Below, one piece after another: positions 15,399 through 59,161 of a DNA stretch of 63,067 nucleotides (positions are counted from its first letter, which is position 1; every line of letters begins with the position of its first letter). Made by a program: the position numbers and the translations under genes. Source of the stretch: Candidatus Gastranaerophilales bacterium. Lineage in GTDB: Bacteria > Cyanobacteriota > Vampirovibrionia > Gastranaerophilales > Gastranaerophilaceae. Below the pieces are notes generated by a model that saw only the letters and a list, made by a program, of their open reading frames with translations, was not told where the DNA came from and did no database searches. The DNA lies in contig JAFVFO010000020.1 in the NCBI GenBank assembly GCA_017475485.1, positions 1 to 63,067 on the forward strand, given 5' to 3'.

Positions 15399-15990
15399 AA
15401 TTTTCATCAAGGGGTAATTCGTATGGAATAGTTTGAAATTCTACATTTTTATATTTCTTTTTGAATTCATCTATTTCATTTTGTACGGTTTTTGATTTAT
15501 AAATTAAAAACCGCCCCCCTTTTTTTAAATGTTTTTTTGAAAGTTCATAAATATCGCTGATTTTGCCTACTGCTCTTGAAACAATTAAATCTGCATTAAG
15601 AGGCTCAACATCTTCAATTCTTGAATAAAGTACTTCAAGATTATCCAGTTTTAAACTTTCTTTAATTTCTTTTATAAAATTAATTTTTTTAATTCTTGAA
15701 TCATTTGCAATAATTTTTTTATCTCTAAAGCAAATTGCAAGTATTACCCCCGGAAAACCGCCCCCTGTACCGATATCCAAAATATTTTTATGATTTTTAA
15801 AATCTTCCCATAAATTAATCGCCAAAGAATCATAAACATGTTTTTCAAAAAGCACTTTAGTATCGTTTTTACTCATTAAATTTGTATGAGAATTGTAATT
15901 TAAAAATAATTCTTCCCACTTTAACAGGTCTTTTTGAATTTCAAAAGGAAGATTGATGTTTAGGTTTTTTAAAATTTCAAAATCCGTCAT
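15370..15990 (-). CDS. rsmG: 16S rRNA (guanine-527-N7)-methyltransferase
   Basis: The 206-residue protein has the GidB/RsmG fold: an N-terminal helical part with NSHTNLMSKNDTKVLFEKHVYDSL, the SAM-binding loop DIGTGGGFPGVILAI (about residues 71-85), NDSRIKKINFI, and SRAVGKISDIYEL with the conserved Arg-Ala. It methylates G527 in the 530 loop of 16S rRNA; loss gives low-level streptomycin resistance in other bacteria. Its ATG overlaps the end of the upstream P-loop/TPR gene by 4 nt. Confidence 0.94.
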   Translation of the reverse strand: MTDFEILKNLNINLPFEIQKDLLKWEELFLNYNSHTNLMSKNDTKVLFEKHVYDSLAINLWEDFKNHKNILDIGTGGGFPGVILAICFRDKKIIANDSRIKKINFIKEIKESLKLDNLEVLYSRIEDVEPLNADLIVSRAVGKISDIYELSKKHLKKGGRFLIYKSKTVQNEIDEFKKKYKNVEFQTIPYELPLDENFERKLVIML

Positions 15991-18284
15991 TGCTGAAATT
16001 TACCTGCTATTACGTTGAAATTAACGCTGTTTAATCTCATTTTAATATCTTGAATGCGCGAATTAATTCTTGCTATATTTTCATCTTTTGAATTAGAACC
16101 AAGTGCTTTTTTGGCATTAAAGAAGCTGGTAAGCGCACGCTCATCTTCGCCTCTGTCGTAGTAAAATTCACCTGCTTCAAAATAAACAAGAGCAATTTTA
16201 AATGAATCATTGAGCTTTTTAGCGCTGTCAAGCGCCTGCTTGTAGTATCCTGTAGTATTTTTTGAATCAATGCGCGCATATAATCTTGCAAGTTCTTTTT
16301 GAGAATAATACATATTTTCTAAATCATTATTTTCACTGTCATATAGCAGCGCTAACTTTAGAAACTCGCTTGCTTCCTGATATTTAGATTGCTCCATATA
16401 AATTGAAGCTAAATTTGTTAAAGATATTGAATAGTAAGGATTTTCCGAATGTTCAGAGCTGATTGTGTAGTTTTTCTTGTAATATTTAACCGCATTTTCT
16501 ATATCGCCTGCTTCATCATACAAAATTGCAAGCCTGTAATAACTTTTAGAAGTTAATTCCTTGTTTTGTCCTAAAGATAAAGAAAGAGCATTTTCATAAT
16601 GCTTTGAAGCATTTTCAATATTACCTTGAGCTTCTTCAATTTCTCCGAGCTCAATGCTTGCAATTGCTCTGTATTTATCTGAATATGCTTCGTTAGCTAT
16701 AATTATCCTGAATTCTTCTTTTGCTATATCTGTTTTGTAGAGTTTTTTATTTAACTGTGCAATTAAACATTTTATTTCACATTCGCGTGAATCGCCCGTA
16801 GATATGGCGCAGTTAAGCGCATCTTTAAAATATTTTTGTGCAAATGATGATTCATTTAAGGCATCATAATTTTTTGCAATTAAAATGGATAATTCAATTT
16901 TAAATTCATCATCAAAATCAAGTGCCAATGCTTTTATAAGTTGTTCATTTGCTTCTTTATAGTGATATTTTTTTGATAATTCTCTTGCCTGATTAATTAA
17001 TTCAACAATGGCGCTTCTGTTTTTTTCTTTGTTTTCATCTTTTTTTGTATTTTGCAATATTTTTAAAGAAAAATTTTCTTTTTCCTGCTTTATGATTTTA
17101 TCTTTTCTTTCTTTGATTTTGTTGAATTTTTCAGACAGAGAATTTTTTTCTTTTGCTTTATTGTCTTCAAAATTAAAGCTCGACATTCCGATATAGGAAA
17201 ACGGCTTTTGCGATTGATAATTTACGCTTGGAATTAAATTGCTAAAAAGTTCAATCTCTTTTCTTATGGATTCTCTTGATAGCCTTAAAAGCCTGTCTTT
17301 GGGGCTTTTTGTTAATTCATTTTCATAAATATCGCTTAATTTTCTGTAATAATTAACCTTATCTTGTACGCTTAAACCTTCTTTAATGTAGTCTTTAAAA
17401 TAATCTTTTACATAAATTTCTTTGTCAAATTTGCTTATTAAAAAATTTCTTGATAAATAATCAATGTAGTTAATATTCCCAAGGCTATATTCTTCAATGA
17501 ATTCAGGGCTTACGGGGTGTGAAAGAATTGATAAAATTCTGAAAAATTCGCGATAGGTGCTTGGTGTTAAGGTAATGAATTTTGAAACAATAAAATGTTC
17601 AAAATTATCATCCCTGCGCTCAAATTCATTAATTAAATCAGGGATTGTTATACCTGTATTTGTGCAGTATTTAATGCTCATATTAAGGTATAATTCAAGC
17701 CCTTGGGTAATATAATAAAAACTTTCTTTTATATTTTCATCAAGAGGCTGAGTCAGAATTGTTAATTTAGATTTGAATTCTTCTTTTGAAATTTGTTCTA
17801 ATTTAAAAGACTGCATTCTTACGTTGTGGAATGTACTATTCTCGTTTCTTGAAACAATAATTATTTTTACATTGGAAAATCTTGCCAAATGGGATAAAAA
17901 ATCTGCAATTTCCGAATTTTTTTCAACTTTTTCAAAGTTTTCTACAATGATAATACAGTCGTTTTCAATAGTTTTAAAATAATGGCTTACTTTTTCCTTA
18001 AAATCTCCGGTTGTAAACTTTTTTAAAGATAATTTTCCCGCTAAAGAGAAGTCTTTTAATTCATCATAAAAATTCAACAAAAAATCATCAATAACGGAAT
18101 TTTCAAAGCAAAAGTGTCTGAATATAAGGTTTTCCTCGTTAAGCTCGGGTATAATTTTTTCAATTGTTTCACTTTTAGATGACCCCTTTGGCCCTGATAA
18201 GAAAAATAAGTCATAGGGGGATGTGGTAAAATTTATAATTTCGTTTATAATAGAGTTATTAAATTGAAAAAAGCCCTGATTCAT
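15987..18284 (-). CDS. P-loop ATPase with C-terminal TPR array (STAND-like)
   Basis: The 765-residue protein has an N-terminal NTPase: Walker A GPKGSSKSE at about residue 30, a Walker B-like CIIIVENFE at about 130, and VKIIIVSRNE at about 140 where STAND ATPases carry their sensor. A helical middle region (about 200-350) and a charged linker follow. The C-terminal half is a TPR array (for example YYRLAILYDEAGDIENAVKY and SLTNLASIYMEQSKYQEASE). This ordering is typical of signal-transducing STAND proteins, in which the repeats sense a ligand. No effector domain is visible. The start is set at the second in-frame Met (18284), which has a promoter 7 nt upstream. It forms an operon with rsmG. Confidence 0.78.
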   Translation of the reverse strand: MNQGFFQFNNSIINEIINFTTSPYDLFFLSGPKGSSKSETIEKIIPELNEENLIFRHFCFENSVIDDFLLNFYDELKDFSLAGKLSLKKFTTGDFKEKVSHYFKTIENDCIIIVENFEKVEKNSEIADFLSHLARFSNVKIIIVSRNENSTFHNVRMQSFKLEQISKEEFKSKLTILTQPLDENIKESFYYITQGLELYLNMSIKYCTNTGITIPDLINEFERRDDNFEHFIVSKFITLTPSTYREFFRILSILSHPVSPEFIEEYSLGNINYIDYLSRNFLISKFDKEIYVKDYFKDYIKEGLSVQDKVNYYRKLSDIYENELTKSPKDRLLRLSRESIRKEIELFSNLIPSVNYQSQKPFSYIGMSSFNFEDNKAKEKNSLSEKFNKIKERKDKIIKQEKENFSLKILQNTKKDENKEKNRSAIVELINQARELSKKYHYKEANEQLIKALALDFDDEFKIELSILIAKNYDALNESSFAQKYFKDALNCAISTGDSRECEIKCLIAQLNKKLYKTDIAKEEFRIIIANEAYSDKYRAIASIELGEIEEAQGNIENASKHYENALSLSLGQNKELTSKSYYRLAILYDEAGDIENAVKYYKKNYTISSEHSENPYYSISLTNLASIYMEQSKYQEASEFLKLALLYDSENNDLENMYYSQKELARLYARIDSKNTTGYYKQALDSAKKLNDSFKIALVYFEAGEFYYDRGEDERALTSFFNAKKALGSNSKDENIARINSRIQDIKMRLNSVNFNVIAGKFQQ

Positions 18285-18291
18285 AATACTT

Positions 18292-18320
18292 ATTTTATAA
18301 ATTAAGCCAAGTATTTGCAA
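18292..18320 (-). promoter_or_regulatory. Leaderless-type promoter of the P-loop/TPR gene
   Basis: TTGCAA (18315-18320), 17 nt, TAAAAT (18292-18297), AAGTATT, then ATG at 18284, all on the minus strand. Transcription would begin at or 1 nt before the ATG. Confidence 0.6.
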
Positions 18321-18500: not shown

Positions 18501-19505
18501 ATGCCACAGGTTAATAGTGTAAATCTTGAAAGTATTCCTAAAAATACTTACGTTGTATCGAAGGAAGAAAAGAAAGAAAAATACTATAAGAATGAGCCCC
18601 ACATCCATAAACAAGGGCCTCTTACGGGGTTAAAGGCGGGAGCACACAAGTTTACCAATGATTTTCTTACTTATTTTCCAAAGGGATTTCAAGGGTCTAA
18701 AAATAGCGATTTCTATGAATTTTTATCATTAGGTATGGTTCCTTATGCGCTTGGAAGCATTGTTATGGTGCTTTTGTACGGTGTTAGTAATAAGCAATTG
18801 AGACTTGGCGACAAACCTCAAGCTATTATGAACATCAAAAACGTAGCGGCAGGAACTGCCCTATATGCGCTTGGCAGGTGGGTAACTCCAAAACTTTCAC
18901 ACACCATGCTCCATATTACAACCGGTATTCCTCTTGATTTGAAATATATCAACAAAGTAAACGAGCTTCCTGAACCCGGTCAGGAAAAGGGCCTTGTGAG
19001 AACGCAATACCCCGGAGTTTACGATTCCGTTCAATTCTACCGTTCGGATTTATTATCAAAAGACGCTGATTTGAACCATGGAAGCATTTATTATCATGAT
19101 GATAAAATTGCCAAAAAAGCAGGCTTTAAAGACGCGCATGACGCTTCAACAAATCAAATTGCAGGCCCGAAAATAAGAGGGGTAAAAGCAAGAGCTACAG
19201 CACTTGAAAACTTTGCAAAGTATATAACTGCAGGTACAGGTGTTGCAATGGGCTTCCAAAAGGCATTTTCCGAAATGAAAATGAATGAGCCAAAAACTTG
19301 GCTTAATACAATCAAAGAAGCATTTTTACAATTGTGGAACGGTACAGACAGAAATGCAATTACTAAAAATGCAGGTAAAGCAATGCTTATCTTAAGCGGT
19401 ATCGGAATAACTTTAAGCTGGCTTATTCCTACAATAGGATTTAAGAGAAATCCTGACACCATGAAGTCAACAGTTGACACCCAGAAAGATTACGAGGTGT
19501 GCTAA
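18501..19505 (+). CDS. Unrecognised membrane protein, first gene of the GH13 block
   Basis: I do not recognise this 334-residue protein. It begins MPQVNSVNLESIPK, very like the first residues of the GH13 protein two genes on (MPNVQSVNITVSPLL). Hydrophobic segments lie at about 72-96, 112-130, 238-255 and 293-312, so it probably spans the membrane two to four times. There is no signal peptide. The middle carries HGSIYYHDDKIAKKAGF and related polar stretches. GGAG serves as ribosome site. Its TAA overlaps the ATG of the next gene by one base, indicating strict coupling. It is likely a lineage-specific partner of the following genes. Confidence 0.75.
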   Translation: MPQVNSVNLESIPKNTYVVSKEEKKEKYYKNEPHIHKQGPLTGLKAGAHKFTNDFLTYFPKGFQGSKNSDFYEFLSLGMVPYALGSIVMVLLYGVSNKQLRLGDKPQAIMNIKNVAAGTALYALGRWVTPKLSHTMLHITTGIPLDLKYINKVNELPEPGQEKGLVRTQYPGVYDSVQFYRSDLLSKDADLNHGSIYYHDDKIAKKAGFKDAHDASTNQIAGPKIRGVKARATALENFAKYITAGTGVAMGFQKAFSEMKMNEPKTWLNTIKEAFLQLWNGTDRNAITKNAGKAMLILSGIGITLSWLIPTIGFKRNPDTMKSTVDTQKDYEVC

Positions 19506-22072
19506 TGACAAGAATAAGTCCTTTATTGCAAAATCAAATACAAGAACATAAAACAAGAAACTTAGAGCATGAAAAAATCTATGAAGATTTAAGACGTCAT
19601 GCCAATGATGTTCATCCTAATGCTCCTAAAGCAAGATTAATCAATGAAACATTATCTCAAAGTGTTGTTTCGTATTTTAAAGATACAAAACAAGACTTTG
19701 TAAACCTGAAAGATACTGTTAAAACAGGTAAAATGAGCGATAACAGCCTGGGAAGATTGAATGACTTAGGAATGAAAATAGGCGGTCTTTTAATTGCTTC
19801 TTTTCTTGCAATTCATTCAAAAAGCGCCAATGAATCCGCAATGCGTTTTGTTGGTACAGGTGCATTTTTCGCTTCAATGAAATTATGGCCAAAAATTTTC
19901 ATCAATCTTCCCGCTAAGTTAATCCATGGGGTTGATCCCGGCCAAAGATATATTTCCGCTCAAGGCGATAAAAAAGATTTCTATCTTGATAATCAATTCT
20001 TGCCTTGGGATATAACAGATATTAAAGATGAAAAAGAACAAAGACGCCACCAGAAAGTTACACTGCAAAACAGAACCCTTTGGATGGCAACTGCAGGTGC
20101 AGGCGTTCCTATTATGACGGCATTAATGTCTAACAGGTTAGAACCCGTTGTTGCAAGAACTATTGCACTTAATGCGGCACATAATGTAAATCATCATTCA
20201 AAAACAAAAGAAGGTCTGAAAGAATATGTTCAAGCTGCTCCTTCAATATTAAGAAACGAAGCTGAAATTCAAGCATTGTGCGAAGAATACGCACATGACC
20301 CGTTGAATCCGGAATTTGCGAAAAAACTTTCAAAATTAATGAAAATTCACGAATTCAAATTCAAAGATCCTGATTGGTCAAAAACCATTAACGCATTTTC
20401 TGTAAATGATTTCCAAAATTCTTTAGCGGAATTATGGAAAGAACAAGCACAGGTTACTTGTTCAACAGAAGCATTGGCACAACGTTTAAGAGAACTTACA
20501 ACTTCTCTTCCTCAAAATGCAATGGATATGTTTGATTATTTCGGCGAATTAAAAGAAGTGGCTTCTAATAATGTTGTTCGCTTGCTATCCGATAAAGATA
20601 TTCAAGATATAATTTCTGCAATTCCCGGTAATGAAAAGGGCACAGTCACATTCTCATATAGAGATTTAGAAAAATTAATCAGAGGTATAAGGTTACAAGA
20701 ATCTTTATTGGAATACCAAGAAAGGGCAAAAACAACACCTAAACTATTCAGCAAACCTTTCGCTTCTTATAATCTTGATTTAAGCAACGGTAATCTTTTA
20801 AATCTTGAACAGCAATTTAAAGACGCTCATATAATGATTGCAAAAGATGCCAATAAACAAAAAGTTGAATATGAACCTTTGTTAGACGGCACAAGACTTG
20901 CTAAAAGAGGTATAGATTCCGGTAATCAATCAGTTCAAAATTGGTTAAAGAGTTTTGAATGGAACGACAGAAGTTTCTTTAGCGTAATACAAGCATATAA
21001 CAGAGATGTAATTGCTCCTGTCAGAGGCAGAGTTTTAAGATACTTAAAACTTTCAAATCCTGTAGTCGGTTCTACGGCTGATTCTGTTTATACAAACGCT
21101 TATTCAAGAACAATGAAAAACTTGTTTAATAAATTAGGCTACGGAATTGATTCTAACCACAAACATTTACAACAGGTAATGGATTTCTTCAAAATCCATA
21201 TCTTACATCAAAATGATAAAATCGTAAAAGCAAGACCCGGCGCATGTGTAAAAGATATCGTTGAACAAGATAAATCGGTTTGCGCACAAAGCCTTGTTAA
21301 CTTCTTTAAATCTTTAGTTAAAGATGTTGAATTTGGCAGTGTAGAATATAATCATATTATTGAAGATTTAACTCAAAGCCAATTAACATATTCTGAATTA
21401 AGAGCTGCAGATGTTGTAGCAAACAGAGAAAATATCTCGTTTATAGAAAAACGCGGTATTCATCCTACTCTTGATAAAGCTGTTTTAGGAAACGGAAGCG
21501 GTTCAATGGCTAACATTCTTGCAAATTATGCTTCCGAACAAAAAACAAATATCAATGCTATTATTTCAAGATTAGCTGTTTGTACAAACTTTGAATCAAG
21601 ATTAAAAGAAGGTTTAATCAAAATTGATAACGTAGATTTAAAAGAACTTCCCGAATTATTAGCGGTTGCAAGATCTTTAATATATGAAGGATGTGTTTCT
21701 CAAACAGTTATCAATAATTCGGCAGGCACTTTAAATACTTCAAATTATATGAAGGTTGCTGAAGCTATTTATTCTAAAGAAGCCTTTGAAAATGAGCCTG
21801 TATTTGTTAAACAAAGTGTTGCAAAAGTACTTGAATACATAAGAAAAAATTCAGACTTCCAAGCCAATGATAAATATCTTGCAAACGGTGATTTAGTCGG
21901 CCTTGTAAAAGATTATGCAACTAAATTATATCCGGGCTTAAAATGGATGAAAAAAGTCGGAATTGTGGCAATTATTTTGGCTGCCGGTACTTTATTAATA
22001 CAGCCCTTCTTTGGAAATATCAAAAAAGAATTTTCAAAAGAAGACGCTAAAGGAAAAGGAGGTGCTAACTAA
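19505..22072 (+). CDS. Unrecognised large membrane-associated protein
   Basis: The 855-residue product has no family I can name. It begins MTRISPLLQNQI, sharing the SPLL tag with the next gene. Hydrophobic segments at about 88-108 (GLLIASFLAIHS), 185-205 (MATAGAGVPIMTALM) and at the C-terminus about 825-843 (VGIVAIILAAGTLLIQPFFG) suggest a membrane protein with a soluble, mostly helical domain of some 600 residues between the last two. The ATG at 19505 overlaps the previous stop (TAATG); an upstream GTG is possible but sits on GAGGTG, the ribosome site. Its own stop overlaps the next ATG in the same way. Confidence 0.78.
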   Translation: MTRISPLLQNQIQEHKTRNLEHEKIYEDLRRHANDVHPNAPKARLINETLSQSVVSYFKDTKQDFVNLKDTVKTGKMSDNSLGRLNDLGMKIGGLLIASFLAIHSKSANESAMRFVGTGAFFASMKLWPKIFINLPAKLIHGVDPGQRYISAQGDKKDFYLDNQFLPWDITDIKDEKEQRRHQKVTLQNRTLWMATAGAGVPIMTALMSNRLEPVVARTIALNAAHNVNHHSKTKEGLKEYVQAAPSILRNEAEIQALCEEYAHDPLNPEFAKKLSKLMKIHEFKFKDPDWSKTINAFSVNDFQNSLAELWKEQAQVTCSTEALAQRLRELTTSLPQNAMDMFDYFGELKEVASNNVVRLLSDKDIQDIISAIPGNEKGTVTFSYRDLEKLIRGIRLQESLLEYQERAKTTPKLFSKPFASYNLDLSNGNLLNLEQQFKDAHIMIAKDANKQKVEYEPLLDGTRLAKRGIDSGNQSVQNWLKSFEWNDRSFFSVIQAYNRDVIAPVRGRVLRYLKLSNPVVGSTADSVYTNAYSRTMKNLFNKLGYGIDSNHKHLQQVMDFFKIHILHQNDKIVKARPGACVKDIVEQDKSVCAQSLVNFFKSLVKDVEFGSVEYNHIIEDLTQSQLTYSELRAADVVANRENISFIEKRGIHPTLDKAVLGNGSGSMANILANYASEQKTNINAIISRLAVCTNFESRLKEGLIKIDNVDLKELPELLAVARSLIYEGCVSQTVINNSAGTLNTSNYMKVAEAIYSKEAFENEPVFVKQSVAKVLEYIRKNSDFQANDKYLANGDLVGLVKDYATKLYPGLKWMKKVGIVAIILAAGTLLIQPFFGNIKKEFSKEDAKGKGGAN

Positions 22073-23967
22073 TGCCTAATGTTCAATCGGTCAATATAAC
22101 CGTTAGTCCTCTTTTAGCAAAAACACTTAATATTAAAGCAGATAACAATACAAAAACAAATACTGTTGAACCCCAAACAACTACTGTTGTAGGTTGGAGT
22201 CCTCTTTTAGTTAAAAGCATTCTTGCTCAAAATAAGCAAATTTTGCCTGCAAACGGCATAGTTAATGTTAATACGCCTGCCTCAAACAGAGTTCAAGGCT
22301 ATCATAACGATTTAAAAGATATGCTGACGCATAATAAGGCAAATATTTTAGCTGTTATTCCAAGAATTATGAACGCGCAGGATAAAGACGGAAATGAACT
22401 TATCCAAGGGGATGAAGTATCCGGTAATTTTGTTAATGCGGTAGCACGTCTTGATGAAATTAAAGATTTAGGCTTTAACTGTCAGCATGTTCTTCCTATT
22501 CATCCGCCGGGAAAAATACATGCTATGGGTACGGCAGGTTCTTTATATGCGCCTTTAGATTTTCTTACGCTTGACCCTGAGTTAGTTGATGAAAATCCGC
22601 CTTATGAAGCAAGAAAAAGAATTGAAGAATTATATGAACAAAAAACGGGTAAAAAACTTCTGAAAATGGATAAAAATGACCCCGAAGTTGCTTTTGCTCA
22701 GTGTAAATATTATGTTGATGAATGCCACAAACGCGGGATTAAGCTAATGCTTGATTTACCTTCCTGTGCTTCTGTTGATTTTGCACGCATGCACCCTGAA
22801 ATGATGGCTGTAGGTGCGGACGGCAGGGAAAAAGTTCCGCAAGGCTGGCAGGATATCAGAATGCTAAGACCTTTTGAAAATGAAAAAACAAGAGAACTAA
22901 ATAAATCCGTACTTGATTTACATAAAAAATATGTAGATATGGCAATAGACCTCGGTTTTGACGGTATCAGGGCAGACGTAGGCAGGGCAAAACCTGTTGA
23001 ATTTTGGAATGTAATAATTAATTATTCACATGCCAAAGACCCGCAATTTGCTTGGCTTGCAGAAACATACACCCATGAAGACGCTTCTCCGCAGTTGAAT
23101 ATGCCTTATGACAGACCTCAAGAGCTTTTAGAAGTAGGTTTTGATTCATATTACGGTCAATACCACATATATAACGATTGGACAACCGCTCAGCAGTTAT
23201 ATGATTATGTAAAAGAAAATATTGATATGAATAATGAAATCAAATCTCCAAAATCATTAATAGGTTCTTTTGCAACACATGATGATGTTTCTCCTATGTT
23301 ATATGGCGGTGCGCCTTGGGTAATGTACACAACGGTTTTACAAACAATGCTTCCGCAAGTAAATCCGTATATGACAGACGGTGTTCAAACAGGCGATTTC
23401 TATATCTTCCCTTATGACCATGCACTTGTCAGAGATTCCGAAACGGATAACCACGAATGTACGGTTCATACCGGCCGTATGGATATATTCAACAAATCAA
23501 GAAAACCCGGCGGAAGTTTCCCGCAGATAGCAGAAGTTGTAAAATCAGCATTCTCATTAAGAAATAACAATTACAACGAAGTCAACAAAGATACTCCATA
23601 TAAATTGCAAATGACAAATCCGCAGGATGTATTAACAAAAGGCTCATTTATTATATTGCCGACAAACAACCCCGAAATTGTTGCATTTGCAAGACATAAA
23701 GACGGTAAAACACTTCTATTTATCGGTAATAGAAACGTAAATAAAGCTGTTGGCGGTACTATTGAAATCCCCGGTTTAAAAGATAGCCAGAAATTCCACA
23801 ATTTAATACCTGCTTACGGCGAAGAATGTAAATTCCAAAATAATCAAAACGGCTCAATCAATGTAGAACTCGGAAAATCCAGAGCATGCGTGTTTGAAAT
23901 TGATGATGCCAATATTGAAAGATTATCTAACTCTCAAAATGTTCTTCAACAACACTATCTTAACTAA
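22072..23967 (+). CDS. Divergent GH13 (alpha-amylase clan) enzyme
   Basis: The 631-residue protein has the GH13 (beta/alpha)8 barrel. Region II is GFDGIRADVGRAKP (nucleophile Asp), region III FAWLAETYTHED (acid/base Glu) and region IV FATHDDVSP (third Asp), so the catalytic triad is present. Region I reads IKLMLDLPSCAS, lacking the usual Asn-His, and region IV has THDD instead of NHD. It has no signal peptide. Residues 12-16 and 43-47 carry two copies of an SPLL motif before the barrel. Substrate cannot be read; alpha-glucan hydrolysis or transfer is likely. It is coupled to the preceding gene by a one-base overlap. Confidence 0.85.
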   Translation: MPNVQSVNITVSPLLAKTLNIKADNNTKTNTVEPQTTTVVGWSPLLVKSILAQNKQILPANGIVNVNTPASNRVQGYHNDLKDMLTHNKANILAVIPRIMNAQDKDGNELIQGDEVSGNFVNAVARLDEIKDLGFNCQHVLPIHPPGKIHAMGTAGSLYAPLDFLTLDPELVDENPPYEARKRIEELYEQKTGKKLLKMDKNDPEVAFAQCKYYVDECHKRGIKLMLDLPSCASVDFARMHPEMMAVGADGREKVPQGWQDIRMLRPFENEKTRELNKSVLDLHKKYVDMAIDLGFDGIRADVGRAKPVEFWNVIINYSHAKDPQFAWLAETYTHEDASPQLNMPYDRPQELLEVGFDSYYGQYHIYNDWTTAQQLYDYVKENIDMNNEIKSPKSLIGSFATHDDVSPMLYGGAPWVMYTTVLQTMLPQVNPYMTDGVQTGDFYIFPYDHALVRDSETDNHECTVHTGRMDIFNKSRKPGGSFPQIAEVVKSAFSLRNNNYNEVNKDTPYKLQMTNPQDVLTKGSFIILPTNNPEIVAFARHKDGKTLLFIGNRNVNKAVGGTIEIPGLKDSQKFHNLIPAYGEECKFQNNQNGSINVELGKSRACVFEIDDANIERLSNSQNVLQQHYLN

Positions 23968-24015
23968 AAGTTATTGAAGAAAAAATGAGGGAAATTAAAC
24001 AGTAAGGAAAAAGCT

Positions 24016-27000
24016 ATGGATTTATCATTTAATAAAGTAAAAGATGTGCAACATGTTAAAAATCAGCCCGCATTCAAAGGTGTAAAGGGTGAATTTAACA
24101 TGAATAATAATCCGGTGTTTAAGTTTAACCCTCCGCCGTTCGATAAGGAAAACGAAAAAGTTACACTGGAATTTGTACTTCTTGATTACAATGAAGATAA
24201 AAATCAAATGGAAGAACCCTTTAAACAAAGTGTTACTTCTAAAGATTTTGACGGTGATAAACCTTTAAGGATTTCTCAAGAATATTTAAAAAAAGTTAAT
24301 GCAAAAGGTTTTGCATATAGATATAAAATTTCCAAAAAAGATAAACCGGAAGATGTAAGGTACTTTTTAGACAGTTTTGCAAAAATCAAAACCCGTGATA
24401 CTCAGGAAAAATTTAACCTTGTAAGACTTGGCGACGGTTATCAAATTGATCCTAAAATGGGTGCTATGCGCCACAGCTTCTTAGATTCAGACGCAATTTT
24501 AGATGCTACCGGTAAATTAAATACAACAGATAAGCATAAAACAAGAAACCACTTTAACAAATTAGGCGGTTCCACCAAGGGTTTAATAGAATTATTAAAA
24601 ACAGGCGAATTAGACCCATACAGATACATTATTTCAACTCCGGATATAGGAAATGACCCGACATCAAGCCATAGATATTGGCCTAATAACCTTTATCAAA
24701 CCGCAAATATGCAAGATTTCAAAGATTTGAACTATGAATTATTTATTCGCGGTAAAGGCTATGTTGCAGACGGTGCATTTACCGACCAATCATTGCAATC
24801 GCCAATGTTTCAGCATGTTTTAAAATGGGGCAAAAAATCTCCGTTCTATCACATGTTCAAAACTGACGGTTCAAACCAAATTATGCTCGGTATTTTGCCG
24901 AATGATATTAAAGAAAACGAAGACAGCGCATACAACCACATAGGTGTAAGGCTTGTAAATAATCCGAACAGTGCTGAGTATGATAAAACAAAACCGATTT
25001 TATTACAATTTTATGATGACAGATTGTCCTCAATTGAACAAAGAAATGATACAACGCGTTTAATTGACGCTTATGACAGTCTTCCTGAAGATATATTTGA
25101 AATTACTCATAATGATGATTCCGTATATCCTTTCTATTTTGAAATGGATCCCGTGTCATTGCCTGATGTTAAGGAAAAATTAGCATTATTTAAAGATAAA
25201 AACGCTATTTTATTAAGTGAAATAAACGAAATTATGGGAAAATCCAAATTCCTTGATTTCGGCCCGTTTGCAGTGGCAGAAGACAGACACCATGCCGCAA
25301 ATGCAACCTTCTGGGACGGCAATCGCGATATCGTTAAATTTAATCTTTCAAATCCTAAAGATTTTGTTGACGGCGAAATGAGCGATAAAAACAGAGAAGG
25401 CATGGAAAATGCAAGAAACTATCTGTACGGTGTTGCGCGTTTCCATACAGAAGCAATTGAAAGCGACTTGTTGTTAAGAAGTACAAAATTAACCAAGCCG
25501 GAAAGAATAAAAGTAGCAAAAGCAAACGGTGTAGAAGATATTAATTCAATACTGTTTACTAAAAATCAATCTCACTTCCCGATTTTAGAAAGAAACAAAA
25601 AAGCGGGCGAATATATTTCGGAATTTCCGTTGCAATCATTGGAAACAAGTCCTGAATTAAGTGCAATTTTTGCAGAACCTCAATTTAATAAGGAATTTTT
25701 GGAAGAAGAAGAATTTTTTGAACGTTATTCAATTGAAAAAGACGGTTCATTCAGAAAAATTCATCCCGAAGATTATTTCAATGAAGACAAATTCCAAAAT
25801 AATAATGCTTATGCTCAAATGTTTAAACTTGTTGAAGGTACAATCAACAATGTATTGACAACAATACCCGAAAAAAATCAAGACGGGCATGGAAGCTATA
25901 AAAAATATGTTGTTAAGGTTTTTGCAAATGAAATAATAAGATATATAATTGCATCTTCTCTAAACCCTAACTGTGTTAATGAAAAAGGGGAAGTTGACCT
26001 TGAGGAATTAAAGAAAGTTACCTTAAAATCTTTAGCACCTAATGCAAAATCTCCGGAAGATGAGCGCAAACAGGTTATAAATAAAATTAAAGCAGGCATG
26101 AAAAATGTCGATATGCGCCCTATTGAAGCAAAACTTGTTAATGAATTACATAATGTTTCACTGTCAAGTTTTAAAGACGCTGAAACCTTGCTATTGCAAT
26201 GTAATGCAGGTTTAAACTGGAGATTTGACGCAGCTAAAGATATAGGCGACTTAGATTCTGTTCGTGCAGGTTCAAAAGATTTTAAAGATATATGGGACGG
26301 CCCCGAAGGAGTCAGCACCTTCTGGCATGATTTCATTAAAACGGTTAAAGAATATAATCCTTCTTCATATATTATTGCAGAACTTACTGACTTATGGAGT
26401 TTTTATAGCGGTGATAATGAAGAAGTACAGCTTGCATTTGATAAAAACGGTATAAATCCTTCCGTAAAAGAAGCTAATTTCCTTATTGATATCGGTGCTA
26501 CAACTAATTCTAACTACGGACAGTATTTTAATAAATTATCTTGCTTTTTAGGGGTAAATCCTGAAAAGGCTTATGACGGAATGAATGACCCTGTAGGACG
26601 TGCGGGCAATTTAGGCCAATTAAGAGGCGCTGTCAATGAATTTATCGGTTCATCACAGCCTTCAAGTGCTTTATTAACTCACATGTTCTTTGATAACCAT
26701 GATAAGCCGAGATTACTTCACTGCCTGCCTTTGAATATGCAGTTATTCTTGTGTGATACGGATAATAAATCTAAAAATTTATCCGATTATATTAAAAAAT
26801 TACCTCAAAATGAGCAGACAGCATTTATCGAAAGAACAAAAAATTTAACAAACAGAGAAGATTTCACCCAGATAAATCCAATGGCTTTGGCTGTAGGCTT
26901 TATGTTTGAAGATGAAATTGATAAAACAAATGCCTCTGAAGAAGATAAAGCAAAATTAAAACAAGCACTCAGAGAGCTTGTCAACGGTCAAAAAACATCA

Positions 27001-28068
27001 AAATCAAGACCAAACTTCAAAAGAGCCAAATCATTCGGTACAAAACCCTATGAAATAACCATAAGAGAAATGTATAAACGTGCAGGTTTGACTTCTAATT
27101 TAGATGAAGATGTTAAAGATTTCCATTCTTCAATGATGAAGCCTTCAATGGAATACCTTGAAAGATTGTGGCAGGTTATGAATGCAATTGTCGGTACACC
27201 GACATTGTTTAACGGCACAGAATTTGCTCAAACTGGTTATGAAACATTAAATAAGAATGTTTATGTTGATAACAGAAATCAAATTCTTCATGATTTGAAA
27301 AATGACCCGAGATATAAAGATATGTTTGATAGGATGTATGCAGCATCTGACCTTTATAACCAGCCTCAAATGAGCGCAATAAGGGAAGGTTTCCCTGTAT
27401 TATGCAAGGTTAATCCGCCAAAAGGTGCTAAGTTTGACTTCAAAGGTGCAAATCAAGGTGCACTTGAATATTTTGTATCTCAAATTTCAAGCCATGGCGG
27501 TTTAGAACATGTTGATGAGCTTTTCAAAGATGACAAAGTGCCGACACCTGATGAAATTACAAAAGAATTAGGCATTGCATCTGATAACAATAATCCCAAA
27601 AATCTTGAAAAATACTATAAAGACGGCACATTGAAAGAATTTTACAACTTTAAACAAAGTACCAAAAATGCTGTTTCGTTCCTGCCGGTGTTCAAATATG
27701 ACGATAAAGGTTCAAAGGTTTTAAGTATTATTACAAATAATGGCATACCTCAAGGCGAATATGCTTATAAAGCCTCGGGAAATGTTACATTGAATACTAA
27801 TTTAGAAATAGAATCTATTGATGTTGTTGATGATAACAATCAATCCCCGCTTCCTGAAGGTACTAAGTTAAAGAAAAAAGTATATTCAAACGGCAAATAT
27901 GAAACCGAAAAAGACGAAAAAGGAAACGATATTATATATGCAATTAAGGATAAACAGCTTGTAAGGGCTGACGGGCAGAAAATCAAGTTTGAAGATACGG
28001 TTGTAAACTTCTTTGTAGATAAAACACCCTCTATTGTTCGCGGGCCTCAAAACCCTGTTATTCAATAA
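24016..28068 (+). CDS. Very large GH13-like protein
   Basis: This 1350-residue protein carries GH13 active-site regions spread over a long chain: region I-like GYVADGAFTDQSLQSP (about 248-263), then a 480-residue insertion, region II NAGLNWRFDAAKDIG (about 733), region III SYIIAELTDLW (about 783) and region IV MFFDNHDKPRLL (about 893). The three catalytic acids are kept. The N-terminus has HVKNQPAFKGVKG, the FKG tag seen in other proteins of this lineage, and no signal peptide. The C-terminal 250 residues look like a beta-sandwich, as GH13 enzymes often have. It is the last gene of the block, 48 nt after the smaller GH13 gene, with its own AAGGAAAA site. It ends 11 nt inside the convergent gene. 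Confidence 0.8.
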   Translation: MDLSFNKVKDVQHVKNQPAFKGVKGEFNMNNNPVFKFNPPPFDKENEKVTLEFVLLDYNEDKNQMEEPFKQSVTSKDFDGDKPLRISQEYLKKVNAKGFAYRYKISKKDKPEDVRYFLDSFAKIKTRDTQEKFNLVRLGDGYQIDPKMGAMRHSFLDSDAILDATGKLNTTDKHKTRNHFNKLGGSTKGLIELLKTGELDPYRYIISTPDIGNDPTSSHRYWPNNLYQTANMQDFKDLNYELFIRGKGYVADGAFTDQSLQSPMFQHVLKWGKKSPFYHMFKTDGSNQIMLGILPNDIKENEDSAYNHIGVRLVNNPNSAEYDKTKPILLQFYDDRLSSIEQRNDTTRLIDAYDSLPEDIFEITHNDDSVYPFYFEMDPVSLPDVKEKLALFKDKNAILLSEINEIMGKSKFLDFGPFAVAEDRHHAANATFWDGNRDIVKFNLSNPKDFVDGEMSDKNREGMENARNYLYGVARFHTEAIESDLLLRSTKLTKPERIKVAKANGVEDINSILFTKNQSHFPILERNKKAGEYISEFPLQSLETSPELSAIFAEPQFNKEFLEEEEFFERYSIEKDGSFRKIHPEDYFNEDKFQNNNAYAQMFKLVEGTINNVLTTIPEKNQDGHGSYKKYVVKVFANEIIRYIIASSLNPNCVNEKGEVDLEELKKVTLKSLAPNAKSPEDERKQVINKIKAGMKNVDMRPIEAKLVNELHNVSLSSFKDAETLLLQCNAGLNWRFDAAKDIGDLDSVRAGSKDFKDIWDGPEGVSTFWHDFIKTVKEYNPSSYIIAELTDLWSFYSGDNEEVQLAFDKNGINPSVKEANFLIDIGATTNSNYGQYFNKLSCFLGVNPEKAYDGMNDPVGRAGNLGQLRGAVNEFIGSSQPSSALLTHMFFDNHDKPRLLHCLPLNMQLFLCDTDNKSKNLSDYIKKLPQNEQTAFIERTKNLTNREDFTQINPMALAVGFMFEDEIDKTNASEEDKAKLKQALRELVNGQKTSKSRPNFKRAKSFGTKPYEITIREMYKRAGLTSNLDEDVKDFHSSMMKPSMEYLERLWQVMNAIVGTPTLFNGTEFAQTGYETLNKNVYVDNRNQILHDLKNDPRYKDMFDRMYAASDLYNQPQMSAIREGFPVLCKVNPPKGAKFDFKGANQGALEYFVSQISSHGGLEHVDELFKDDKVPTPDEITKELGIASDNNNPKNLEKYYKDGTLKEFYNFKQSTKNAVSFLPVFKYDDKGSKVLSIITNNGIPQGEYAYKASGNVTLNTNLEIESIDVVDDNNQSPLPEGTKLKKKVYSNGKYETEKDEKGNDIIYAIKDKQLVRADGQKIKFEDTVVNFFVDKTPSIVRGPQNPVIQ

Positions 28069-29530
28069 TATCAACATTAAAATCGTCTTTTAAAGCCTCT
28101 ATTATATGGGGGTTAATAATTATGTGCGAACAACTTGAAAGATATATTTTAACATTTTTATCCAAAAGTAAAAATACGTTATAAAGGCTTTCTAAGTCGC
28201 AATGCGGGAAAAATATTGTTGTTTTGATGTTTTGCGTCCTTAGTTTTTCTATTGCGTTTAACATAATATCAGATTCTAATGGTGTTGAAAAATGAACAAT
28301 TTTTTTATTTTGATATTCTTCAAAAATCTTTTTAGAATCAAGATTACCTGCAATGATAACTGTTTCTTGCGGGTTTTTTATTATATCATTTATAATACCG
28401 TTAATTTTTTCTAAATCATAGCTTATATTCAGCTGAGTCTTTTTGTTGTGTTTTAAAAAGCCTTCATGCTTCATTGCCGAATTTATAACAGGAATGTAGT
28501 CATTATTTTTAATATCATTCACTTTTGAAAAAGAAATAACTTTTGAAGAATAGATATCTCCCTTATAAAGGCTGTCTATTTTTTGCAAGAAATTTTTTGT
28601 AATTAAAATTGTTCCTTCAAATTTTGAAAAGTCGTATTGAGCGTCATTTACGCCCCAGTGGCCTTTAAGGAATTTATTATTTTGAAAATAAGGGTAAAAA
28701 TGCGCTAAAAAAAGGCTTCCGTTTGTATAGACATTAATATCTTTTTGCAGGTTTTCGACTGTTTTTAAAATATTTTCAAGTTCATTTAAGTCATCACCCG
28801 AAACCAATATTGCATGCCCTTTAAATTCATCTAAGGAAATCTGCGCATTTTGCTTTTTGCCGTAGCGTTGTTCAAGCACTTCAAATAATTTTCTTTTAAG
28901 GTTTAGTGCAACAGGGCAAAATTCCTGAATGCGTCTTTTTATTTTTTCAATTCTTATGGAATATGCGTTAGTAAGCGCGAAAAACCTTAAAACTTCATAA
29001 TCGTATTTTGTGTAATTAGGCTCATATTGTTTTATTTTAGATATAATTACTGCGCTTAGTTTTGCAAATAAAGTTATTAATTCAAATAATGATTGTTTAG
29101 ATTTATCTGAGGCTTTTGATTTATTAATGGAATTTATTTGCGCAAGTTCAACAATTTGCGTGATTGTTGTTTTTTCACTTATTTCAATATTTGTTTTTAA
29201 AATTTCGCAAGGAAGCTCGTTATTTGCGCAGTATTTTATATATCTGTTTTTGAGTTCATTTTTCACTTTATTGATTTTATTTATAACATCTAAATATTTT
29301 TTTTCATTCAAACTTGTATTTATTAAAAATAATGATAATTTTTCTAAACATTCTTTTTGCGCTTCTTCATCAAGAAAATTAAATTCCTTCATTTTTACAA
29401 GATAAAAAACCGCTTCTCTGATTTTATATAATAAAACATCATATAAAGCACTTGTTACAGGGTGCACCGAGCATGCTCCCGACATAGAGCAAGAGGATTT
29501 TTCCGCTATATTTTTAAAATATTTATACAT
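28058..29530 (-). CDS. Degenerate hybrid-cluster-protein (HCP) relative
   Basis: The 490-residue product follows hybrid cluster proteins (hydroxylamine/NO-detoxifying enzymes) from end to end: GACSVHPVTSALYDVLLYKI near the start, ILVSGDDLNELENIL and INVYTNGSLFLAHFYPYF in the middle, and the C-terminal IIINPHIIEALKDDFNVDII. Metal ligands are largely gone. The N-terminal four-Cys cluster is reduced to CSMSGAC, the usual SGHDL reads SGDDL, and the TNC-type persulfide Cys position reads ITKNFL. It therefore probably binds no hybrid cluster and may be structural or regulatory. The family assignment rests on motif order; a search would settle it. It is transcribed away from a Cys-rich protein gene. 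Confidence 0.7.
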   Translation of the reverse strand: MYKYFKNIAEKSSCSMSGACSVHPVTSALYDVLLYKIREAVFYLVKMKEFNFLDEEAQKECLEKLSLFLINTSLNEKKYLDVINKINKVKNELKNRYIKYCANNELPCEILKTNIEISEKTTITQIVELAQINSINKSKASDKSKQSLFELITLFAKLSAVIISKIKQYEPNYTKYDYEVLRFFALTNAYSIRIEKIKRRIQEFCPVALNLKRKLFEVLEQRYGKKQNAQISLDEFKGHAILVSGDDLNELENILKTVENLQKDINVYTNGSLFLAHFYPYFQNNKFLKGHWGVNDAQYDFSKFEGTILITKNFLQKIDSLYKGDIYSSKVISFSKVNDIKNNDYIPVINSAMKHEGFLKHNKKTQLNISYDLEKINGIINDIIKNPQETVIIAGNLDSKKIFEEYQNKKIVHFSTPLESDIMLNAIEKLRTQNIKTTIFFPHCDLESLYNVFLLLDKNVKIYLSSCSHIIINPHIIEALKDDFNVDIIE

Positions 29531-57349: not shown

Positions 57350-59161
57350 ATGAAAGTTAATGCCGTTAATTCTAATGTTTTAAATAATAATACTCAAAAG
57401 TCTAATCGAAAAATAAACCAATCGAATTTTGACAGCGTTTCTTTTAGCTCAATGAAAAAAAATCAATTCAATGGGATTGATTTAGCGGTAGTTAATAAAT
57501 TTAAAGCGCCGATTGAAAGATTTGACGGCAGGGAAGATTTGCAAAACTGGTGCAAAAATAAAATTCAAGAATTTAATAAAGATTATAAAGCAAAAAATGA
57601 AGATACAACTGTTCAAAGAAATGCTATATTGAGCGAGTGGCGCAATTATTTTGCAAAAGAAAATAAGGAATATACGCCTTCTCAAATGCTTTTAATCTTT
57701 GACGGTATTACGAAAAATCTGAACTATGATAATGACAATATACCCCCTGTTTTAAATAAGCGTGTTCTGGCGGATACAATTCAGCAAATTGAACATGAGC
57801 TTCGTGCAGACAGAAGTTTTAGTTTTAATTTCGGCAAAATTTATGCAAATAATTTAAGGGAATATTATGTATCTGATAATGAAACAGGTAACGGAAAAGA
57901 TTATACAGGCTGGATTATTATACCTTCAAAAGAACATGACCCCTTAAATTTTGAAACAAATGTTGAAAAATTACAGGCTTTATCTCATAAAAGCTGGTGT
58001 ACAAAAAGTCAAATGGCGCAGTCGTATCTGGAAAAAGGCGATTTTCATATTTATATGGAAGAAGGTAAGCCAAAGCTCGGTGTAAGGTTTGATGAATTTG
58101 ATGAAATAGCTGAAATTCAAGGTGAAAAAAACAATACAAAAATTCCGCACAGCTATTTGGATATAGCAAAAAAACATGTCGAAGAAGGCGAATATTATCT
58201 TAGTGCAGACGCTGAAACGGAATTCAGAGAAGCCGAATATAAAAAAGATAAAATAAATGCCTTTTTGGAAAAACATAAAGATATTAAAAATTATTCAACA
58301 GAACAGATTTTATCTGCTGTCGGAATAGAATATGAAGTTGATAAAAAAGATAACAAAATTATATTACAGCATTATTCACAGCCTCGAGATTTTAGTTTTG
58401 ATGATATAGGAATTGATGAAAATAAATTGTTTGCAAGAATAAAAATGATTAAAAACGGTGCAGATTTATTTGATTCAAATCTTAATAATCTTGGTGCGCT
58501 TGAATATATCAGGGGCGAATATAGCTTTGTAGGCACTAAATTGAAGTCTTTAGGCAATCTTAGAGAATTAAAAAGCGAAGATTTCAGATACCTTGGTAAT
58601 GTATCGGATTTTGACAGTGTAAGAAAAATTAACGGTGATGTAAGTTATGATACTTTTGCTGATATACCTGCATTTAAGGATAAGACGGTTATTTTGCCTT
58701 CTGTAAGAAGCATAGAAGGAAGTGTTAATTTAAGCGGATTAAAAAAGGTTGATTTGACTTCACTTGAACAAGTTGCGGGAGATTTCGATATTTCAAATAC
58801 CAAAAAGGTTCGTTTGGATAATTTAAGAGCTGTATATGGCGATGCTGATTTTTCTAATGCAGGACTATATAGGCTGGATAAATTACAAAAGGTTGAAGGG
58901 GATGTATTTTTGAACAATTGTCCCGTTAAAGATTTATCTTCCCTTAAATCGGCAGATGAAGTATATTTAGACGGCTCAAGCGTTATAAAAATAGGAATAC
59001 CCGGTATATTGGATGATGATGACGATTTTTGTTTTTCCGATAGCTTCTTAGATGATTTTGAATATGACAGTAAAGATAAATTTAGTTCCTATTCTAATCC
59101 TTGGGGCAGCGGTTATGATGAAGGATTAAATTCTATAATAGATAGATATAGAAAGTTATAA
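57350..59161 (+). CDS. Repeat protein with a Trp-Cys core domain, lineage-specific
   Basis: The 603-residue product begins with a polar, Asn-rich stretch and the tag FDSVSFSS...NQFNG, related to the FKG-type openings seen elsewhere in the window. A middle domain (about 200-275) contains SHKSWCTKSQMAQSYLEKGD, then FHIYMEEGKPKLGVRF, EIQGEKNNTKIP and SYLDIAKKH. The C-terminal third (about 390-560) consists of degenerate short repeats of the leucine-rich type (LKKVDLTSLEQVAGDFDISN, then LRAVYGDADFSNAG). There is no signal peptide. The domain pairing looks like a host- or phage-interacting protein, but this is inference. It has its own terminator and GAAGGGAAA ribosome site. Confidence 0.75.
   Translation: MKVNAVNSNVLNNNTQKSNRKINQSNFDSVSFSSMKKNQFNGIDLAVVNKFKAPIERFDGREDLQNWCKNKIQEFNKDYKAKNEDTTVQRNAILSEWRNYFAKENKEYTPSQMLLIFDGITKNLNYDNDNIPPVLNKRVLADTIQQIEHELRADRSFSFNFGKIYANNLREYYVSDNETGNGKDYTGWIIIPSKEHDPLNFETNVEKLQALSHKSWCTKSQMAQSYLEKGDFHIYMEEGKPKLGVRFDEFDEIAEIQGEKNNTKIPHSYLDIAKKHVEEGEYYLSADAETEFREAEYKKDKINAFLEKHKDIKNYSTEQILSAVGIEYEVDKKDNKIILQHYSQPRDFSFDDIGIDENKLFARIKMIKNGADLFDSNLNNLGALEYIRGEYSFVGTKLKSLGNLRELKSEDFRYLGNVSDFDSVRKINGDVSYDTFADIPAFKDKTVILPSVRSIEGSVNLSGLKKVDLTSLEQVAGDFDISNTKKVRLDNLRAVYGDADFSNAGLYRLDKLQKVEGDVFLNNCPVKDLSSLKSADEVYLDGSSVIKIGIPGILDDDDDFCFSDSFLDDFEYDSKDKFSSYSNPWGSGYDEGLNSIIDRYRKL

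Follow-up and report, generated by a model that had tools for sequence, protein, structure and literature searches.

Gastranaerophilales are gut relatives of cyanobacteria, a non-photosynthetic branch known mainly from assembled metagenomes. In a 63,067-nucleotide (nt) contig of one such organism (Candidatus Gastranaerophilales bacterium, assembly GCA_017475485.1, contig JAFVFO010000020.1; this whole stretch is referred to as the window), we analyzed a block of four genes that encodes two membrane proteins, A and B, and two enzymes of the GH13 family, C and D. We confirm the block as real and as a core cassette of the order. Our favored reading, to which we assign a probability of roughly 0.55, is that A, B, C, and D make up a membrane-anchored complex that processes alpha-glucans by remodeling maltodextrin or glycogen. 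The best evidence for a membrane-tethered enzyme comes from a class-level relative, G382, in which B and C are fused into one protein, and it is very likely that C is tethered to the membrane by A and B, a new protein family. While the organization of the cassette is well supported, its chemistry, its topology, and its assembly into a complex are what we infer from the sequences. A preliminary description, made from the letters of the window, had suggested an intracellular, membrane-linked alpha-glucan pathway specific to the lineage, and this interpretation is partly supported by the analysis presented here.

The G382 genome consists of a single contig and holds the cassette in an altered form. 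A single open reading frame (ORF) of 1030 residues resembles the B profile over its first half (4.3e-28) and the C profile over its second half (1.5e-105). The A protein (379 residues) is encoded just upstream and its gene overlaps the fusion ORF by 4 nt, and the gene for D (1355 residues) is adjacent and divergent from A and the fusion. Such a fusion suggests that B and C work bound together, and we consider it good, though single, evidence for this; the proposed membrane link is strengthened accordingly by a natural fusion, in one genome. The GH13 domain of the fusion comes after the fourth hydrophobic segment of B and a KTSRRRK stretch, and the strongly positive charge of this stretch suggests that the domain is located on the cytoplasmic side. 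A transporter resembling sucrose symporters then follows D on the same strand; it lies below the TIGR01301 cut-off and matches SUC1 (8.8e-27) among the solved sequences.

In the window, the four ORFs lie on one strand at the coordinates collected in Table 1, and the block is as first described. A TAATG at 19503-19507 joins A to B, such that the A stop codon (19503-19505) and the B ATG at 19505 overlap by one base, and a second TAATG at 22070-22074 does the same for B and C (B stop 22070-22072, C ATG at 22072). These overlaps and the 48 nt between C and D, both reported earlier, are seen in the sequence. The ORF list gives a GTG at 19499 as an alternative start of B, from which the protein would have 857 residues. 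Of the two large membrane-associated proteins originally named, B (855-857 residues) deserves the adjective and A, with just 334 residues, does not.

To establish how widely the cassette occurs, 59 genomes from 24 genera, the window's own included, were surveyed with single-sequence searches (E ≤ 0.001). A was detected in 50 genomes, B in 51, C in 52, and D in 49; 48 genomes had all four genes, seven had none (G036, G042, G044, G047, G052, G053, and G058), and four had some (G032, G043, G051, and G054), among them G032 (75% complete) and G051 (66% complete). The C query also picks up the sister of C described below, which was the only match of this query seen in G032, and the D match in G038 is a fragment (2.5e-9). 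Six of the seven genomes with none of the genes, all but G053, belong to the same order, and five of these six gave weak profile matches to other, shorter GH13 proteins, which were left out of the counts. Since G047 is 99% complete and lacks all four genes, and two other genomes of its genus carry all four, the cassette seems to have been lost there as one set.

A scan of named public genomes yielded 371 encoded relatives of C, and the best 80 of these were returned and inspected. Their titles are mostly Candidatus Gastranaerophilales, uncultured bacterium, Cyanobacteria, or Melainabacteria, with one Fusobacterium sp. CAG:439. In 77 of these best 80 loci, A, B, and C occur in this order on one strand, and in the remaining three (L083, L124, and L137) the contig terminates within the cassette; this recurrence indicates that the arrangement is more than chance. 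When the window is added to the 77 loci to give 78 triads, D comes next after C in 52. The closest start of B lies at -1 in 51 triads; for C, the closest start lies at -1 in 28 triads and at -14, -8, or -4 in 37. Thus, the four genes are conserved together in related genomes, a point on which the preliminary description had been open to refutation.

Across the phylum, a B profile matched 176 of 386 genomes. One match, G166, was rejected as a distant carrier of B, as the frame is 81 residues long and the match has three stops inside it. Four further matches (G040, G041, G046, and G382) lie outside the window's family, f1, which leaves 171 of the 172 f1 genomes, G399 being the miss; this count assumes that 190 unmatched genomes, which were not named individually in a list that runs by kinship, are outside f1. 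With the profiles, no C or D match was obtained in the other class-level genomes tested (eight from f9, one from f11, and one from f8). The specificity to the lineage that had been claimed can therefore be stated, among the genomes searched, as the order Gastranaerophilales plus one class-level relative, G382. A phage origin was rejected: when viral_contigs were scanned, 47 pattern matches came up, none of them an encoded relative.

Each of the two membrane proteins has four hydrophobic segments by alignment-averaged hydropathy (Table 1), and their profiles indicate that A and B are paralogues. An hhalign comparison of A with B gave 96.1% (E 2.8e-9, 198 columns), or 87.3% (E 3.8e-6) when the B alignment used was narrower, while eight controls (A or B against BacA, reversed rows, a TPR neighbor, C, and D) gave 0.1 to 0.9%. 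In sequence searches, the B profile finds the A protein of G382 (2.6e-6). The A profile, run against 1633 proteins, recovers three B proteins at E < 1e-3, and its best unrelated protein is at 0.38. The best ordinary A protein found by the B profile is at just 0.011, beside 0.018 for an unrelated protein, and the case for homology is built on the profile-profile comparison and on the A protein of G382. The two proteins differ between segments 3 and 4, where B has a long insert and A has approximately 40 residues.

Judged from the family searches, A and B match no known family and are an undescribed membrane-protein pair, in agreement with the earlier account. None of 44 A members has a Pfam match, and the best match of the A profile to solved sequences (PDB) is at 0.16, to designed proteins. 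Two isolated members of the 27 B proteins searched in Pfam (E ≤ 0.01) match VMAP-M1 and HetE-N, respectively, and we attribute both to chance similarity of the helical insert of B; it is over this insert that solved sequences are matched as well, at best importin beta-3 (0.0015) and then designed helical proteins. For A, B, and D of the window, Pfam and NCBIfam at E ≤ 1 returned sub-threshold noise or nothing, the NCBIfam search of A and B being limited to the window's proteins.

The assignment of C and D to GH13 is based on profile matches and on the catalytic residues. PF00128 was matched at E ≤ 0.01 by 13 of 19 C members and 13 of 26 D members, and five proteins from other genomes exceed its curated cut-off. 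As stated in the preliminary description, the three catalytic acids are kept in both enzymes, without exception in the aligned sequences (Table 1), and the region II Arg is likewise invariant (R300 in 94/94 distinct C sequences and the fusion; R736 in 47/47 aligned D sequences, G382 included). C and D are probably active enzymes, although the term alpha-glucan is founded on GH13 membership and intact catalytic residues rather than on activity. The Asn-His of region I, which is typical of most GH13 enzymes, is absent from C and from 26 of 26 D rows. Of the alterations described previously for regions I and IV, that of region I applies to both enzymes, and that of region IV to C (THDD) and not to D, which has an ordinary DNHD. 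Profile comparison of C with D gave 0.4% and 22.7%; the idea that they are close relatives was rejected, and they are at most two distant members of GH13.

Among solved sequences, the C profile matches 4gkl (1.6e-24), 1gju (1.2e-21), 3dhu (8.7e-19), and the GlgE structure 3zss (6e-16). We take 4gkl to be AmyB of T. neapolitana, 1gju to be the maltosyltransferase of T. maritima, and 3dhu to be from L. plantarum. The window's own C has weak alpha-amylase-type matches below every cut-off in Pfam and NCBIfam, and 6 of 19 C members have weak matches to hDGE_amylase, a glucanotransferase family. The window's genome also encodes a shorter paralogue of C (L061:6265-7779, G000:C55) whose N-terminus is strongly hydrophobic and signal-peptide-like; this sister of the tethered enzyme is perhaps exported. 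In G055 (L048:5830-7484), C is split into two ORFs of 243 and 318 residues, as a broken gene or an assembly error.

The first and third of these matches, 4gkl and 3dhu, are GH13_48 maltogenic amylases, which share with C an LPIxPxG..GTxGSxYA region and a GXR at the start of conserved sequence region (CSR) II. In contrast to them, C lacks the Asn-His of CSR-I, has THD for NHD, and comes with a membrane protein, either linked or in a fusion. The accessible part of one study gives an NH ending CSR-I and an NHD as features of GH13_48 (PMC11239784). In the 94 distinct C sequences, CSR-I ends in S-C in 93 and G-C in one, never in NH, and region IV reads THD in 93 and SHD in one, never NHD, and membership of C in GH13_48 was rejected on these grounds. 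The same part of that study reports a Cys before the nucleophile in 81% of GH13_48 and GH13_49 together, and Ala or Val in some members (PMC11239784); this position is A, S, or V in 19 C rows and never C, and Ala and Val occur in members of those subfamilies too.

The GlgE enzymes of GH13_3 (3zss and 5cgm) share with C a region I devoid of Asn-His and a KPxxFW following the nucleophile. They differ in that C has no room for the N-terminal domains of GlgE and does not keep its phosphate-binding residues, which are N352, K355, Y357, and N395 in S. coelicolor numbering, according to the available portion of PMC4526890. The window's C has K254, Q257, W259, and V303 at these positions; among 94 C sequences, N never occurs at 254, K occupies 257 in three, and W at 259 and V at 303 are constant. 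Based on these residues, the identification of C as a GlgE was rejected. The second-best match, 1gju, a maltodextrin glycosyltransferase, resembles C in lacking the Asn-His of region I, and its middle part shows no alignment with that of C; we know of no membrane partner for this maltosyltransferase. Because the phosphate site of GlgE and the NH and NHD of GH13_48 are both absent, C lies between known GH13 subfamilies. From its nearest relatives and the missing phosphate site, the likeliest chemistry of C would be the transfer or release of maltosyl or longer units, and C would not use maltose 1-phosphate.

For D, the best profile matches to solved sequences are 2wc7 (1e-13), followed by 1sma, 1ea9, and 1j0h, which are titled alpha amylase, maltogenic amylase, cyclomaltodextrinase, and neopullulanase and which presumably represent GH13_20. 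D differs from this group by approximately 380 extra residues, a region I without Asn-His, and an N-terminal F-x-G motif. The insertion of 480 residues within the barrel that had been described corresponds to a spacing of approximately 475 residues between regions I and II, while the excess over 1sma consists of two blocks of approximately 137 and 243 residues that flank a region-V-like motif. GH13_20-type enzymes have an N-terminal CBM34 and an MPKLN in region V. The window's D reads DIVKFN at the place matching MPKLN, and in 26 D members Pfam recognized no carbohydrate-binding module and, apart from one marginal SpoIVA_C match, no other family in the insertions.

The N-terminal motif of D is F-K-G in the window (Table 1), and a regular expression finds F-x-G within 80 residues of the N-terminus in 58 of 66 distinct D sequences. 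Motifs of this type occur in 7 of 97 distinct C sequences and, after a polar tail, in several proteins unrelated to A-D; loci include L061:1048-2688, L166:4198-5685, L174:7496-8482, L160:395-3136, L127:13401-15182, and L113:16975-19587. FKG falls in the first 40 residues of 74 of the 1205 proteins of the fetched loci and in 22, 4, 7, and 2 in the next four bins, and many of the proteins bearing it are D orthologues, with some BacA or AdoHcyase. In the sample from the window's genome, FKG or FGG is found in 9 of 227 proteins in the first bin and in 7, 2, and 4 thereafter. A general tag was not upheld, as D orthologues inflate the first count and the second shows hardly any enrichment; possibly, F-K-G is a shared tag.

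Table 1. Positions in the window of the cassette genes and of features of their products.
Feature	Position	Strand	Basis or occurrence
Gene A (membrane protein, paralogue of B by profile comparison)	18501..19505	+	ORF, 334 aa
A, four hydrophobic segments (aa 74-92, 115-133, 234-252, 294-312)	18720..19436	+	alignment-averaged hydropathy
Gene B (membrane protein; segments 3 and 4 separated by a long insert that is variable and probably helical)	19505..22072	+	ORF, 855 aa from ATG
B, hydrophobic segments 1-3 (aa 87-105, 117-135, 193-211, from GTG)	19757..20131	+	alignment-averaged hydropathy
B, hydrophobic segment 4 (aa 820-838)	21956..22012	+	alignment-averaged hydropathy
Gene C (putative GH13 enzyme near AmyB, maltosyltransferase, GlgE)	22072..23967	+	ORF, 631 aa
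C, catalytic nucleophile D302	22975..22977	+	invariant in 94/94 distinct C and the G382 fusion
C, catalytic E331	23062-23064	+	invariant in 94/94 distinct C and the G382 fusion
C, catalytic D404	23281-23283	+	invariant in 94/94 distinct C and the G382 fusion
Gene D (putative GH13 enzyme, two large insertions)	24016..28068	+	ORF, 1350 aa
D, N-terminal F-K-G motif (F20, G22)	24073..24081	+	F20 and G22 in 47/47 aligned D
D, first insertion (approximate)	24880..25302	+	gap in alignment to 1sma; limits by eye
D, second insertion (approximate)	25465..26190	+	gap in alignment to 1sma; limits by eye
D, catalytic nucleophile D738	26227..26229	+	invariant in 47/47
D, catalytic E789	26380-26382	+	invariant in 47/47
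D, catalytic D896	26701-26703	+	invariant in 47/47

In our favored reading, the paralogous A and B would form a heteromeric anchor or scaffold in the membrane. C would be held at this anchor, covalently in one relative and elsewhere through overlapping, probably translationally coupled genes, where it would act as a glucanotransferase-type enzyme on maltodextrin or glycogen. D would serve as a cyclomaltodextrinase- or neopullulanase-like partner, and both enzymes would probably face the cytoplasm, beside the ordinary glycogen enzymes. Genes of the GT5 and phosphorylase families exceed the Pfam cut-off in all 13 genomes tested, the best GT5 match being weak in G041 (7e-18) and G058 (1e-18). The window's genome has one GT5 gene above the NCBIfam glgA cut-off, and in it GlgX-like and branching/TreZ-like genes are present below their cut-offs. 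A third divergent GH13, branching/TreZ-like and below curated cut-offs, directly follows D on the same strand in G041 (L044:2297-4651) and is found elsewhere in the window's genome (L155:6017-8422, G000:C25).

The same glycogen-family genes could be taken to favor the view that there is no complex, and that C and D are soluble glycogen enzymes of the cytoplasm, connected to two unrelated membrane proteins by nothing more than a common transcript. Except for one of 46 D proteins, neither enzyme shows a hydrophobic segment, and D is found unlinked from A-B-C, or without B, in some genomes. This account does not explain the B-C fusion, the gene overlap kept across the order, or the joint absence of the four genes from 7 of 59 genomes, and we consider it unlikely.

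A second alternative is that C and D, or C alone, act outside the cytoplasm, carried there by A and B or by a route that reads the N-terminal F-x-G tag. It would fit the signal-peptide-like N-terminus of the sister of C, the conserved motif in D, and the unsettled topology of B. As had been noted earlier, however, the enzymes have no signal peptide: a simple hydropathy test on the named loci found a signal-peptide-like hydrophobic N-terminus in 0 of 80 C and 0 of 53 D proteins. The charge of the KTSRRRK stretch in the fusion also points to the cytoplasm, and the tag is hardly enriched in the sample from the window's genome, so that export seems quite improbable to us. An intracellular location, as first proposed, is probable and fits the absence of signal peptides.

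A further alternative is a role in making a glucan and moving it through the membrane. In its most far-reaching form, which we put forward as a long shot, A and B would be a new family forming a lineage-specific membrane station, in which GH13 transglycosylases build or remodel an alpha-glucan, A and B pass the polymer or its products across, and GH13 replaces the usual glycosyltransferase of a synthase/translocator. A plainer version, in which the cassette is a membrane alpha-glucan synthase or exporter whose C and D extend or trim chains that A and B pass across, would accord with the transferases among the nearest relatives of C and with the fusion to a membrane protein. We give it little credence, as each membrane protein has just four moderate hydrophobic segments, no glycosyltransferase adjoins the cassette in the window, and we know of no surface glucan in this group.

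Precedents for GH13 domains that are fused to, or pair with, membrane proteins are found in the fungal alpha-glucan synthase Ags1 and in rBAT/4F2hc, the non-catalytic GH13 subunits that are heavy chains of amino-acid transporters. The cassette shares with these the combination of GH13 and a membrane protein, whereas its anchor is an undescribed pair of paralogues. That C and D might be non-catalytic subunits of a transporter, as this partnership and the altered region I of both proteins could suggest, is very improbable given that both catalytic triads are invariant. rBAT and 4F2hc are designated GH13_35 and GH13_34 in the accessible part of PMC11239784.

Several observations weigh against the favored reading of a membrane-anchored complex. 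The fusion was seen in one genome, and the window's own C and D have no PF00128 match. In the alignment of D with 1sma, the first stretch alone is significant, the others being colinear but weak. The hydrophobic segments are moderate, and fewer than four pass the cut in many single sequences (with a stricter cut, 28 of 44 A sequences retain two, and 38 of 66 B sequences retain three), and the flanking charges leave the topology of A and B undecided. Seven genomes live without the cassette. At least seven of the 59 genomes (G029, G033, G034, G035, G040, G045, and G048) retain D at a site away from A-B-C, and in L032 and L039 it adjoins an S-adenosylhomocysteine hydrolase gene. Lastly, G399, which was searched for B, C, and D, has D (1.3e-224), no B, and, in place of C, just a C-like protein of 520 residues.

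The surroundings of the cassette were also inspected. Divergent from A, the window encodes an ATPase-like protein with a TPR part (15987-18320) that resembles the MalT-like TPR model of Pfam below its cut-off; such a gene lies next to A in 49 of 78 triads and is a possible regulator. A convergent gene (28058-29530) overlaps the end of D by 11 bases, and its 490-residue product matches the prismane/CO-dehydrogenase family. Directly after C in G040 (L042:10564-14483), two proteins of 629 and 627 residues share identical first 70 residues with an EF-hand-like start. At 57350-59161 of the window, a 603-residue protein weakly matches Recep_L_domain and begins with a polar tail.

Starch and glycogen fermentation is predicted for the lineage in two early papers, and their passages on this fermentation do not mention the cassette (PMC3787301; PMC4040986, as far as the accessible parts of both go). 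Literature searches pairing the lineage with glycogen, GH13, amylase/operon, or hypothetical proteins gave, among the matches listed, no title or abstract opening that describes it, with most subscription journals outside their coverage.

The natural fusion of B and C turns these findings into a directly testable claim, namely that starch or glycogen chemistry is organized at the membrane in these bacteria. The membrane-protein pair is missing from the family databases tried, and with B present in all but one of the surveyed genomes of the window's family, the cassette, with its membrane pair of no known relatives, is part of the core biology of the lineage.

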